Below are positions 6,211-26,815 of a stretch of 28,680 bases of DNA, piece after piece. Position 1 is the first letter of the stretch, and each line of letters begins with the position of its first letter. The translations under genes were made by a program, and so were the position numbers. The notes below the pieces were generated by a model. That model was given only the letters and a program-made list of their open reading frames with translations, was not told the DNA's origin and searched no databases. This DNA is from a virus: the IMG/VR virus record IMGVR_UViG_3300027714_000084, positions 1 through 28,680 of that record, one strand, 5' to 3'.

Positions 6211-7569
6211 TTAAAAGAAATCGATGACACCAGCGTGTCTATTTTTCATTGGAAATAAGTTTGTTAACAAAAATCTAAGGGCATCGCAATGGTGGTCAAA
6301 CTTACCATCTTTTTTAGGTTCATGGCGTAGTGTTTGATCTTCTCGATGCTCTGGGTAATGATAATTCTCGTACGATTCAATGCTTTTTTTGCATTTAGGA
6401 TTAATAAAGAAGTGTGGCTGTCCATTTGCATCTTCAAACCATCTACGCACATGGGATACACCAGAGACTACGTTTCTAGTGACTGCATCACGCTTTATGC
6501 TCACTCGTAGGTTGTGGTTAGCAAACACCTGCAAATCACTAATTCCTGACTGCAAATTAGTACCTGACCCCGCAGGGTCTCCCCATATACCAGTGTATTC
6601 GTATCCAAGTGAGTTAAGTTTTTGTGCAAACTCTTCTGTTCGCGTGTTTTGCAGGTCCACCTCGTCAATTTGATGTATCTCAGCAAAATTCTTTTCACGA
6701 TTGTGAATTTGAACGATAATTCCAGCACTATGCCTGTATCCAAAATCTAAGCCACAGTATACTGGTTTCGATGGATCGTACTTCACATCATCGCGGATTT
6801 GGGTTTCTCTGTTTAATGGGTATACTTTCCCTGAGTAGGATTGAAATTCGCACAATATCTCTTGCAAGTATGTCTCTTTTGTTAAGGTCCGCTTTAGTTC
6901 TTCATGGTCATCTTTAAAATATGGAGATAGTGTACTAGGAAATCTCCACGAAGACCAATCTGGATGCTCTGGATTATTCCCAAACTCGTAGAGACGATGT
7001 AGGTAGTTAAATCCGCGAGGCGTGGATGTAAACAAACACCACCCTTGCCTATCCGCTAAAGTAGGTCTAAGGTACATTTCAAACGTACTACGTGGGATGA
7101 GAGCTGCTTCATCAATGATAAGATAATCGACACCAAAGTATTATGATTGACCTCTCGGTCAACCATCTCCAATGAGCGATTCTTTATTTTCTGCTGACTT
7201 CACAGATAACTCAGAATTAAGTCCAGCTAACTTCATGTAATACAAGTCACCCGAAATCTCTTTCTTTGACTCTAAAGGTAAACGCAATTGCGTCATTATC
7301 ACGTGCTTTACCTCACGAGCAATCTTGTTCGCAAGAGCATAGTTTGGACCAACAATCCAACCACGAGTATTCGGGGTTAGTAACCAGGGCAGTATCTCAT
7401 GCGCTGCCATAAAACTTTTTCCAGAGCGTCTGCCCATCAAGCAAACACGAAAACGAGATTTGCTGCTATGCACTTCCAACTGCTGTGGAGTCGGATTGTA
7501 ACCCAAAATCTTCCATAGCTTTTTCTTGTTTATTATTTTCTTTATCAAGTGGGTTCTCCTCAAAACCAC
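6211..7569 (-). CDS. terL: Terminase large subunit, interrupted by a putative bypass element
   Basis: This is the packaging ATPase-nuclease, in two frame-matched parts. The first (7159-7569) has an adenine-binding Q motif (PTPQQ, residues 26-30) and Walker A (GRRSGKS, 46-52), and ends ...ESLIGDG before TGA. The second resumes at 7131 with VDYLIIDEAALIP (Walker B) and carries the RNase-H-like nuclease residues: CGLDFGY, WGDPAGSG and a C-terminal DHHCDALRF. Together they give about 442 residues, normal for TerL. The parts are separated by 30 nt with in-frame TGA and TAA. No other damage is visible. Translation may begin at GTG 7569 or at TTG 7548, which has AGGAG at good spacing; the start overlaps the small terminase gene out of frame. 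If the gap is not bypassed, a 288-residue product from ATG 7077 would lack both Walker motifs. Confidence 0.85.
7132..7164 (-). other. Candidate translational bypass site in terL
   Basis: On the coding strand, GGU (7164-7162) is followed at once by UGA. A second GGU (7134-7132) is followed by GUC, the next expected codon. The 30 nt from UGA through the second GGU are in register but contain UGA and UAA. The take-off GGU and UGA form the 5' arm of a hairpin, GGUUGACC-GAGA-GGUCAAUC: 8 bp with one G-U pair, capped by a C(GAGA)G GNRA tetraloop. Known bypassing in T4 gene 60 uses matched GGA codons, a stop directly after take-off, a capped hairpin and a 50-nt gap. The similarity is structural; bypassing here is inferred. 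Confidence 0.6.
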
Positions 7570-7894
7570 ATTCCTGTAACACGGATTGTAAGTTTGTAGT
7601 CATGTCAACGGCAGTTTTATCACTCATACCTAAATAATTCTTTGCCATGAAGATCTGCATCGCAATAGAATTATTCTCCATTGCAGATGTCCACATAGCT
7701 CTTCGTAGCTTGAATTTCATGTCTTCACGGCCAGATTCATACTGTTCCTTGAAGTCTTTACGTATGTATGCTTCTCCGACTTCGAAATATTTACCAATAT
7801 CGATATATTTACACCCAAATGATGCGAGCATCCTTACTTTGTCTGGATCAACGTTCTTTTTCTTCATCAATACTAGTCTTTTCGATGACATCAC
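7466..7894 (-). CDS. terS: Terminase small subunit
   Basis: A 142-residue protein directly upstream of terL. Residues about 15-50 look like a DNA-binding HTH (DPDKVRMLASFG, YIDIGKYFEVGEAYIRKDF). A helical middle (KLRRAMWTSAMENNSIAMQIFMAKN) follows and resembles the oligomerisation part of small terminases (the family pattern being a helix ending in KNYLGM). The C-terminal tail is low-complexity and overlaps terL by about 100 nt in another frame. The annotated start overlaps the upstream gene by 47 nt; ATG at 7867 (MKKKNVDPDK) is a possible alternative, and neither has a strong ribosome site. It should recognise the packaging site and load TerL. Confidence 0.8.
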   Translation of the reverse strand: MMSSKRLVLMKKKNVDPDKVRMLASFGCKYIDIGKYFEVGEAYIRKDFKEQYESGREDMKFKLRRAMWTSAMENNSIAMQIFMAKNYLGMSDKTAVDMTTNLQSVLQECGFEENPLDKENNKQEKAMEDFGLQSDSTAVGSA

Positions 7895-8255
7895 CGATTT
7901 TCTTTAAAGTTCTGCGCCAGTACTCCTTAACGCTTGATTCTGTTATCTCCATCTCCACTGCAATGTCTACAAATGTATGACCTAAAGTGCGTTTCTTGAA
8001 TACACGCAATTCTTGTGGTGACAGGAGATCATAAAACTTGTGTGCAGCTAATTGGAGTTGACGAAGTTCAGGTTCAACCATACCACTACGAAATACTAGC
8101 AACTTGAGATGATACCGATCTGCGCGGTCAATTGCATGCAACCACCTGTCTGTATTTTCGTCTGTTAGGTTAGACCAAACTTCTTCCATAGCATAAGTTA
8201 AGCACACGTGTTGACATAAAAGAAGAGAAAAAATTTGAGATGCGGTAAGTCGCAC
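7848..8255 (-). CDS. HTH protein resembling sigma-70 region 4 / ArpU-type regulator
   Basis: Up to 135 residues. The C-terminal half (LSPQELRVFKKRTLGHTFVDIAVEMEITESSVKEYWRRTLKKI, residues about 78-120, shown here as a positional guide only by its ends LSPQE and LKKI) is a sigma-region-4/LuxR-type helix-turn-helix. The frame opens at GTG 8255, but the first 22 residues look unlike a protein start; ATG 8189 (MEEVWSNLTDE) is a better-looking beginning. Neither has a convincing ribosome site. It is the first gene of the packaging/head operon and overlaps terS, so it could control late transcription or be a DNA-binding packaging accessory. The conserved minus-strand -10 element lies just upstream. 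Confidence 0.6.
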   Translation of the reverse strand: MRLTASQIFSLLLCQHVCLTYAMEEVWSNLTDENTDRWLHAIDRADRYHLKLLVFRSGMVEPELRQLQLAAHKFYDLLSPQELRVFKKRTLGHTFVDIAVEMEITESSVKEYWRRTLKKIGDVIEKTSIDEEKER

Positions 8256-8529: not shown

Positions 8530-8709
8530 ATGAGAGACAATCTAAAATTTTTACTTGCTAGTCAATTAATATTTATGATTGGCATTAAATTAAATTCAAA
8601 TAGCTTCGATAATATTTCAATAATTGGGTTAAATATATTTTTTATATTATTTTTATCGATTATAGATCATGCCAAAAAACAAGAGAAACTAAAGAGAGGT
8701 AATAAATGA
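8530..8709 (+). CDS. Two-TM miniprotein (59 aa)
   Basis: A 59-residue frame with a good ribosome site (AGAGAGGTTTAAC before ATG). Two hydrophobic stretches (about residues 7-20, FLLASQLIFMIG, and 30-45, IIGLNIFFILFLSIID) predict two short membrane helices separated by a polar Asn/Ser loop, with a Lys-rich C-terminus. The stop overlaps the next ATG as ATGA. As first gene of an early-looking operon it could act on the host membrane, for example as an inhibitor or exclusion factor. I do not recognise a family. Confidence 0.6.
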   Translation: MRDNLKFLLASQLIFMIGIKLNSNSFDNISIIGLNIFFILFLSIIDHAKKQEKLKRGNK

Positions 8710-9395
8710 AACTATTAACACAACCAACTGGAAACACTAAAACCAATAAGTCATTAGCTTTAGGATATGCTACCTATATAATGCATTTATCACCATCAAA
8801 AAAAAGCGGTAATAATGTATGTCCGGCGGCAACGCCTGGTTGCATTGCAAGCTGCTTAGATGAGAGCGGGCGCGGTCAATGGGTGTACGATAAAAAAGGA
8901 AACTTTAATCCAATCCATAAAGCGCGCTTAAATAGAACGAATTTTTTTTTTAATGATAGAAGCGCGTTTTTGGACCAACTAAAAAAAGAGATGGAGAGCG
9001 CAATCAAATCAGCATTAAAAAAAGGTTTTAAACCCGCTTTCCGATTGAATGGAACCTCAGACATACGTTGGGAAAATTACGGAATTATTGAAACTTTCTC
9101 AGATCATACATTTTATGATTACACAAAAATATATAATAGAAAAAATATACCATCTAATTATAATCTCACTTTCTCACGTGCTGAGAGTAATCACAAGGAA
9201 ACCCAAAGCGCGCTTGTCAATGGATTAAACATTGCTGCTGTTTTTAGAAATGAATTACCTAAAACATTTTTAAACACTAGAGTAATTAATGGAGACAAAC
9301 ACGATCTAAGATTTTTAGATCCCAAAAATAGTATTGTTGGTTTAATTGCCAAAGGTAAAGCGAAAAAAGATACAAGCGGGTTTGTAATTAATTAA
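8706..9395 (+). CDS. GP88-family protein
   Basis: A 229-residue protein matching, as I remember it, the phage GP88 family (named for a mycobacteriophage gene product). It has an early Cys cluster VCPAATPGCIASCLDESGRG (about residues 38-57), then NPIHKARLNRT and a FLDQLKKEM segment, then FRLNGTSDIRWENYG, and a C-terminal VINGDKHDLRFLDPK. The conserved Cys, Asp and His residues suggest metal or cofactor binding; the Cys spacing recalls iron-sulfur or zinc proteins, but no function is established to my knowledge. Ribosome site: AGAGAGGTAATAA before ATG. It is the main gene of the only plus-strand operon. Confidence 0.75.
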   Translation: MKLLTQPTGNTKTNKSLALGYATYIMHLSPSKKSGNNVCPAATPGCIASCLDESGRGQWVYDKKGNFNPIHKARLNRTNFFFNDRSAFLDQLKKEMESAIKSALKKGFKPAFRLNGTSDIRWENYGIIETFSDHTFYDYTKIYNRKNIPSNYNLTFSRAESNHKETQSALVNGLNIAAVFRNELPKTFLNTRVINGDKHDLRFLDPKNSIVGLIAKGKAKKDTSGFVIN

Positions 9396-12468: not shown

Positions 12469-13121
12469 AGTTGCCTACGCAATGAATACAAGGCACAACA
12501 ATGCCTAAATACTTGCGCGCCAACGTCTAGCTTTTCACGGCTAATAACATGCTTATGGAACTTCCCATCTTCTTTACCAAACCTCATAATAACGCCATAT
12601 GCAACCTTTGCTTTAGGCTGTGCAGCTTCAAACATCATAGTATATGCACCTAATTGCACTATCATTTCTGGGTATGGTCCACCTTTACTCGTCTTCCAAT
12701 CAACTAAAACTAAATCATCTTCAATTTTGCCAATGCAGTCTACTGTACCACCTGCCCGCAATTCCTCATTAACTAAGGCAAATTCATTTTTCAGTGCTTT
12801 AAAATTAGTTTTATCGTACCAATTCCTAAATCCTACAAATGCTTTTAGTGCCTGCTCTTCCTGGTTTGGTGAATAATCACGTGTATCCACATCAAAACCA
12901 TCCAAATAACCTTGAATCATTAGATGACACAATGTCCCTATGTGACCCGCTTCACGCATGACCTCGTCCGCATCATCTCCTTGAGCGGTGATCCGCTTTG
13001 CCCAAGATATTAATGTGTTTTTATTCCATCCGAGCTGATTATTTATAATTGTAGTGACACTAGCGGCTCGTTTTCCATCTTTCAATACATAGTTTTGACC
13101 ATGTAGCTTTGTTCTACTCAT
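12465..13121 (-). CDS. RecB/Cas4-like PD-(D/E)XK exonuclease
   Basis: A 218-residue protein with a full RecB-nuclease signature: H66 in GTLCHLMIQ, E113, D128 in GGTVDCIGKI, D141-x-K143 in LVLVDWKTSKG, and Q156-x(3)-Y160 in QLGAY. These residues bind the metals and cleave DNA in the RecB/lambda-exonuclease group. Ribosome site: AAGGAGAGAAG before ATG. It lies between the SSB/nuclease block and the primase-helicase, so a role in recombination, replication-end processing or host DNA degradation is likely. No Fe-S cysteine set of Cas4 is visible. Confidence 0.85.
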   Translation of the reverse strand: MSRTKLHGQNYVLKDGKRAASVTTIINNQLGWNKNTLISWAKRITAQGDDADEVMREAGHIGTLCHLMIQGYLDGFDVDTRDYSPNQEEQALKAFVGFRNWYDKTNFKALKNEFALVNEELRAGGTVDCIGKIEDDLVLVDWKTSKGGPYPEMIVQLGAYTMMFEAAQPKAKVAYGVIMRFGKEDGKFHKHVISREKLDVGAQVFRHCCALYSLRRQL

Positions 13122-26735: not shown

Positions 26736-26815
26736 TTTCTTTTCATCTTACGACTAACTTTTTTCTTCTTTACTTTAACTTTTTTAGATTTATTTTTTCC
26801 GTAGTTATATGGCAT
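26732..26815 (-). CDS. Lys-rich micropeptide (27 aa)
   Basis: The frame MPYNYGKNKSKKVKVKKKKV followed by SRKMKRK is 27 residues with over half Lys or Arg. It has a strong ribosome site (AGGAGATCATA before ATG), and its stop overlaps the lysozyme ATG as ATGA. Similar tiny basic peptides occur in structural regions of marine phages. DNA or RNA binding inside the head, or simply coupling the lysozyme's translation, are both possible. Confidence 0.6.
   Translation of the reverse strand: MPYNYGKNKSKKVKVKKKKVSRKMKRK

Follow-up and report, generated by a model that had tools for sequence, protein, structure and literature searches.

A UGA-hairpin gap in phage terL resembles a ribosome-bypass element and recurs in related phages

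The gene for the terminase large subunit (terL) of a marine phage is broken by a gap that opens with a UGA hairpin directly after a take-off codon and ends in a triplet matching that codon; omission of the gap restores TerL. We consider it likely, with a probability of roughly 0.86, that this insert is a programmed ribosome-bypass (hop) element like that of T4 gene 60, a reading inferred from sequence alone, without protein, RNA or ribosome data. The window, that is, the whole stretch of DNA analysed, is the phage record of 28,680 bases, in which terL lies on the minus strand from about 7569 to 6211 (Table 1). The terL frame halts at UGA (7161-7159) right after ...SLIGDG, and the same frame picks up 30 nt further on as VDYLIIDEAA. 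Read 5' to 3' on the minus strand, the junction is GGA GAT GGT (7164-7162) TGA CCG AGA GGT CAA TCA TAA TAC TTT GGT (7134-7132) GTC GAT TAT. The two halves align to complementary regions of PHROG 2 (terminase large subunit), and the 3' half also matches Pfam PF17289. Homology joins GDG to VDY exactly once the gap is left out, a join for which there are no protein data. An earlier note on this record had described the coordinates, hairpin, stops and bordering GGU triplets, all of which held when the sequence was re-read. Its claim that the halves share one frame and that deleting 30 nt joins SLIGDG to VDYLIIDEAA like intact terminases also held, as intact relatives lack the gap.

Table 1. Features of the interrupted terL gene in the window, and site classes of elements in related loci
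Feature	Position or loci	Strand	Basis
5' terL part, GTG-started ORF, 136 aa ending GDG, Walker A GRRSGKS	7162..7569	-	ORF call, PHROG 2, motif check
Putative take-off codon GGU (Gly)	7162..7164	-	sequence; position conserved in relatives
30-nt gap, predicted untranslated (putative bypass element)	7132..7161	-	missing from intact relatives; 35 alleles overall
UGA stop, A site at take-off	7159..7161	-	sequence; UGA in all short alleles
Take-off hairpin, 8 bp, GAGA (GNRA) tetraloop	7145..7164	-	folding; arms vary with compensation between alleles
Second in-frame stop, UAA, inside gap	7141..7143	-	sequence
Putative landing codon GGU, 13 nt past UGA-based stem	7132..7134	-	sequence
3' terL part, 306 aa + stop, from VDYLIIDEAA (Walker B), RNase H-like nuclease domain	6211..7131	-	Pfam PF17289, PHROG 2
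Element site one codon later than window site	L193, L199, L211, L212, L218		scan 3
Element site four codons later	L203, L210		scan 3
Element site two codons earlier	L227, L230		scan 3
Long-stem 50-51 nt elements, original site	L170, L173, L183, L190, L216, L217		scan 3

The hairpin of the window consists of arms GGUUGACC and GGUCAAUC around the GAGA loop (7164-7145). Take-off codon and gap together fold at -12.2 kcal/mol, a value matched by none of 500 base-shuffled gaps. When the element was folded in a 101-nt context, z was only -1.6, which is not significant. Since the fold of this single sequence was unconvincing by itself, comparison with relatives had to decide. Elsewhere in the window, two small ORFs upstream of terL (7466-7894 and 7848-8255, minus strand) are candidates for the small terminase subunit, the second containing a helix-turn-helix of the LuxR/sigma-70 region 4 type, and a short 21-bp tandem repeat (2.2 copies) lies at 26740-26785. 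A GP88 / Gp37-Gp68-like gene (8706-9395, plus strand) is ~45-51% identical to Pelagibacter and uncultured marine phage genes. Hints of a host are limited to this gene, which is akin to those of Pelagibacter and other alphaproteobacterial phages, and the host was not identified.

A query of IMG/VR with the 3' half of terL took no account of the insert and returned 70 terL genes in which the junction could be read (scan 1). Fourteen of the 70 carry an insert at exactly the window site; the remaining relatives run G-[DE]-G straight into the DY/DW/DF segment without an insert. Scan 2 used the pattern VKSA[DE]..[DE].LIG[DE]G followed by a stop (TAA, TAG or TGA) or TGG and did not require a hairpin. 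It returned 40 contigs, and in all 39 that were readable past the gap the stop is UGA and opens a stem-loop, with a landing triplet and resumption of TerL 24-35 nt later. With more distant TerL proteins as queries (scan 3), 23 of 80 loci were found to contain an element, including new site and architecture classes. The combined set comprises 150 related terL genes, 54 with an insert in this segment and 96 without; the proportion is not a prevalence, since scan 2 selected for inserts and some contigs are redundant. At least 35 distinct alleles of the element are now known in this terL segment of phages. Identical alleles recur in contigs from different samples, which excludes both chance and an assembly artefact, the latter one of the objections that the earlier note had foreseen. 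Its suggestion to compare close relatives was borne out by exact presence and absence of the insert, including near-identical pairs with and without it, while its implication of a single case must be qualified, as the element belongs to a recurrent terL family.

No convincing element of this type was found outside terL in the collected loci (1.9 Mb, both strands counted), and hairpin-specific scans of collections returned terL only, plus matches judged to be chance. The latter include GGYTGACCGARAGGTC hairpin matches outside terL; at 12803-12820 of a 50-kb contig (L079), a small unrelated gene (...VLIG-UGA) has its stop codon and 3' flank in the same 18-nt hairpin, probably by chance. Among cultured phages there was no terL of >60% identity and no match to the 51-nt element. 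The single match in a genome collection, a distant Deltaproteobacteria MAG, is without the element, and a double annotation in Thermus phage TSP4 reflects overlapping ORFs on opposite strands, not a split gene.

Allele gaps measure 24-35 or 46-51 nt, and their lengths modulo 3 are spread over remainders 0, 1 and 2 (13, 10 and 12 of the 35 alleles). In the window and in 30 of 30 short alleles, UGA lies directly 3' of the take-off codon and starts the 5' arm of the hairpin, whereas the five long alleles have AGA, AGG or AGU instead of a stop at that position. Stems of the short alleles, counted from UGA, are 5-8 bp long and are frequently lengthened by pairing of the take-off codon. The arms vary yet stay paired: position 4 is C-G or A-U, position 5 is C-G or U-A, and position 6 shows five pair types. 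Paired arm variants are TGACC/GGTCA, TGACCC/GGGTCA, TGAACGC/GCGTTCA, TGAATGGG/CCCATTCA and TGAATAGG/CCTATTCA. GNRA or UNCG loops cap 26 of the 30 short alleles (19 GNRA: GAAA 11, GAGA 3, GCAA 3, GGAA 1 and GUGA 1; 7 UNCG: UUCG 4 and UGCG 3), and the other loops are UUU (2), UAGC (1) and GAAG (1). The distance from stem to landing is 12-13 nt in 18 of the 30 and 5-15 nt otherwise. Beyond UGA and the landing triplet, no sequence is common to all hairpin families. The peptide upstream of the take-off is conserved, ordinary TerL sequence with or without the element.

Long-stem elements are 51 nt (L170, L216, L217), 50 nt (L173, L183, L190) or 46 nt (L227, L230) in length and combine an A-site triplet AGA, AGG or AGU with a stem of ~14-20 bp and a landing triplet GGA, CGC or GGC. 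Should these prove to be real hops, a hop can do without the stop codon. An explanation of AGA and AGG as rare codons was rejected: in these phages AGA is not rare and AGG is moderately so.

The resume point was fixed by protein homology, independently of the landing triplet, and a full match was defined as allowing third-position wobble. Of the 35 alleles, 26 show a full match between the take-off codon and the triplet that precedes the resume point; in the other nine, with landings AGC, TGC or CGC, the two match at two positions only. At offsets -6 to -1 and +1 to +3, not one full match to the take-off occurred in the 35 alleles. When landing triplets were permuted among alleles, 26 matches were never reached in 20,000 draws (maximum 22). 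These statistics overstate independence, however, as several hairpin families are related. The landing tracks the take-off when the codon changes (GGT/GGT, GGC/GGC, GGA/GGA, CTT/CTT, TTA/TTA, ATT/ATC). Such tracking corresponds, at the level of coding, to a compensatory change in a stem, and it suggests that one tRNA re-pairs. Landing on partly matched triplets is plausible, because a paper cited in PMC3014915 states in its title that minimal conventional pairing can suffice and because mitochondrial byps include imperfect take-off/landing pairs (PMC5009743). The 3-bp repeat could also be an insertion scar, and the elements may have arisen together with a 3-nt repeat; the target duplication proposed in the earlier note could still account for how the repeat arose. 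L153 and L154 are compatible with duplication of GGC, while the triplets in L211/L213 are instead ATT and ATC.

Pairwise pN/pS of interrupted terL was 0.155 for the 5' part, 0.109 for the 18 codons that separate the resume point from the first ATG, and 0.182 for the 3' part; the same segments of uninterrupted terL gave 0.118, 0.106 and 0.110. Both halves of the interrupted gene are under purifying selection. No second terL was found in the eight element-bearing records tested, the window included, so the possibility raised earlier that another terL serves the phage found no support. The low pN/pS together with the single terL indicate that interrupted terL is in use and that translation of the codons right after the gap follows the restored frame.

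According to the hop model, the ribosome would arrive at the Gly codon and hold UGA in its A site; the hairpin would fold in or at this site and hinder the release factor. The peptidyl-tRNA-Gly would detach, the ribosome would slide ~30 nt, and the tRNA would re-pair with the landing codon, so that decoding would restart at GUC-GAU and yield full-length TerL. The window allele would be expected to give the tryptic junction peptide ESLIGDGVDYLIIDEAALIPR, without gap residues. This mechanism is inferred from the resemblance to the layout of T4 gene 60, in which an A-site stem-loop hinders release and peptidyl-tRNA re-pairs (PMC3014915, PMC11194080). T4 sliding remains processive up to 56 nt (PMC11194080), and all allele gap lengths fall inside that range. 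The bypass interpretation of the earlier note, with its T4 precedent, is supported by comparison, although bypass itself is undemonstrated.

We weighed the hop against other ways in which TerL might be made. Decoding of the gap by stop readthrough or by hairpin-stimulated +1/-1 frameshifting, adding ~10 residues, finds some support in four in-frame alleles that contain a single UGA, in a +1 frame open in 4 of 10 mod-1 alleles and in a -1 frame open in 9 of 12 mod-2 alleles. However, the frame needed for reading through the gap contains stops in 22 of 35 alleles and is open in the other 13, a rate no higher than that of irrelevant frames (38 of 70). The peptides encoded by the gaps would be unconserved and would lie at Walker B, and the landing triplet would be left unexplained. 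In the window both UGA and UAA would have to be passed, so the earlier claim that simple readthrough fails held. Because gap lengths take all values modulo 3, readthrough cannot explain the alleles, and we regard this whole class of explanation as very unlikely. The same grade applies to removal of the gap at the RNA level, by a very small intron or other excision before translation. Exact excision would restore the ORF, and the elements come and go precisely, as mobile introns do. Nevertheless, no self-splicing intron is known to be anywhere near as small as 24-51 nt, the hairpin families share nothing but UGA and the landing triplet, and the match of take-off and landing respects codon register at either end, something for which splicing has no need. 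Nor does the layout fit a bulge-helix-bulge, since in short alleles the 3' boundary is found 5-15 nt past the stem. An Rfam search of the window gave no match at gathering score, which, with a gap of only 30 nt, also speaks against a group I or II intron. An intein was rejected as well, 30 nt with two stops not being an in-frame protein-coding insert.

It is likewise very improbable that terL is a pseudogene or makes two separate proteins. Phage genes split after endonuclease insertions are known, as in T4 genes 39 and 60 (PMC3014915), but here both halves are under purifying selection and no second terL was found. In addition, 21 of 35 alleles lack an in-frame ATG, GTG or TTG in the stretch from the last stop of the gap to Walker B, which makes a separate start of the 3' part unlikely for most alleles, and Walker B of the window is upstream of the first in-frame ATG. 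A DNA-level switch, in which some phages of a population lose the element by deletion between its short repeats and TerL comes from these genomes alone, was judged without read-level data and also appears very unlikely. Slippage deletion can be favoured by a hairpin flanked by short direct repeats, and an element-free twin exists (L153/L154). Against this, several alleles have no exact 3-base repeat (AGC, TGC and CGC landings), and elements are kept while the flanking coding sequence diverges under selection. The programmed hop thus remains our preferred reading.

A DNA tree of 94 terL genes requires at least 13 changes of element state, 10 of them forced by well-supported branches. A protein tree of 150 terL genes (54 with, 96 without the element) requires at least 25, with 18 forced; this tree rests on a short search and includes some redundant contigs and the scan 2 genes selected for inserts. 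Near-identical contigs occur with and without the element (L154/L153, L211/L213). The terL of L153 is 99.5% identical to that of L132/L142, from which it differs by exactly the 33 nt of the element, and L213 and L211 encode identical TerL and differ by exactly the 28 nt of theirs. In L145 and L138 (95% identical) one site is occupied by unrelated elements, and an identical 51-nt element occurs in L170 and L216 despite TerL only 62% identical. The elements recur in one terL segment and, by inference from these patterns, appear to move between phages. When L027, L032 and L037 are compared with empty relatives, upstream differences are concentrated in the last ~20 nt before the site, resembling the co-conversion tracts that homing elements leave (PMC2988022). 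We also observed that, in these three loci and L145 relative to empty or differently occupied relatives, differences crowd into the 20-30 nt just upstream, as if flank and element had been swapped in as a cassette. No element-linked neighbour such as a homing endonuclease was found among clustered neighbouring ORFs. We infer that homologous recombination into a single hot segment of terL carries the elements from phage to phage, possibly because they disrupt an endonuclease target there. Persistence through such disruption, which has been proposed for the T4 gene 60 insert (PMC5009743), is hypothesis only for the terL elements.

A bolder reading, towards which we lean only slightly, is that a widespread family of portable ribosome-hop cassettes, comprising at least five classes of site and architecture, colonises phage terL at its Walker B segment. 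Such cassettes would spread horizontally without an ORF of their own, with co-conversion of ~20 nt of flanking coding sequence, and would need only a take-off hairpin and a landing codon, not the other stimulators of T4; some would use a long stem and a sense codon (AGA/AGG/AGU) in place of the stop. The minimal needs of a hop and the spread of hop elements have been difficult to study, with bypassing proven in one phage gene and mass-reported in the mitochondria of one yeast group. The 35 natural alleles vary in stem, loop, gap length, codon and A-site triplet within an essential gene, and near-identical element-free contigs are natural controls, making minimal requirements and mobility directly testable. 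For annotation, they are a warning that 'broken' terL genes may be functional.

T4 gene 60 has take-off GGA, an immediate stop, a stem-loop with a stabilising tetraloop and landing GGA (PMC3014915, PMC11194080). The terL elements share with it a phage gene as setting, Gly take-off, an immediate stop, a tetraloop-capped take-off stem-loop and a matched landing; allele L134 even has the same GGA/GGA pair. They differ in using UGA rather than UAG (PMC11194080) and in gaps of mostly 24-35 nt rather than 50 nt, and they occur as many alleles in many phages, some without a take-off stop, with no sequence relation shown. The 5' stem-loop, KKYK peptide signal and GAG before the landing of gene 60 are not evident in terL: the 60 nt upstream of the element were not more structured than in insert-free genes (mean z -0.94 versus -0.69), and GAG before the landing was not consistent across gaps. 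The T4 5' stem-loop acts as a stimulator and is not the event itself.

In Magnusiomyces capitatus mitochondria, 81 byps in 12 genes appear to be independent of mRNA context, with an unused codon in the A site (PMC5009743). Like the terL elements, these are multiple short inserts skipped in decoding whose take-off/landing match is sometimes imperfect (PMC5009743); unlike them, they occupy many genes of a yeast mitochondrial genome, not a single gene segment in phage mRNA. Mycobacteriophage TerL inteins colonise the ATPase domain, one site being Walker B, and include endonuclease-active members (PMC5050341). They share the domain with our elements but are protein-coding and removed from the protein, whereas the elements have no ORF. 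A likely short bypass has been suggested for the terminase of Streptomyces phage Hau3 and prophage Strep C.1 (PMC5009743). That proposal has terminase function and bypass in common with terL elements, but involves a UUA codon, a much shorter gap and an upstream Shine-Dalgarno, and is not described there as a stop-hairpin element (PMC5009743). The earlier view that bypass in a packaging ATPase would be new therefore held only in part. Our search of the open-access literature for bypass and terminase found no description of the present elements, although a report may have escaped us, and putative hop elements of this type in terL are probably undescribed. Bypassing itself is known: T4 gene 60 is the proven case, Magnusiomyces mitochondria show it on a massive scale, and suggestive cases include the Hau3 terminase.
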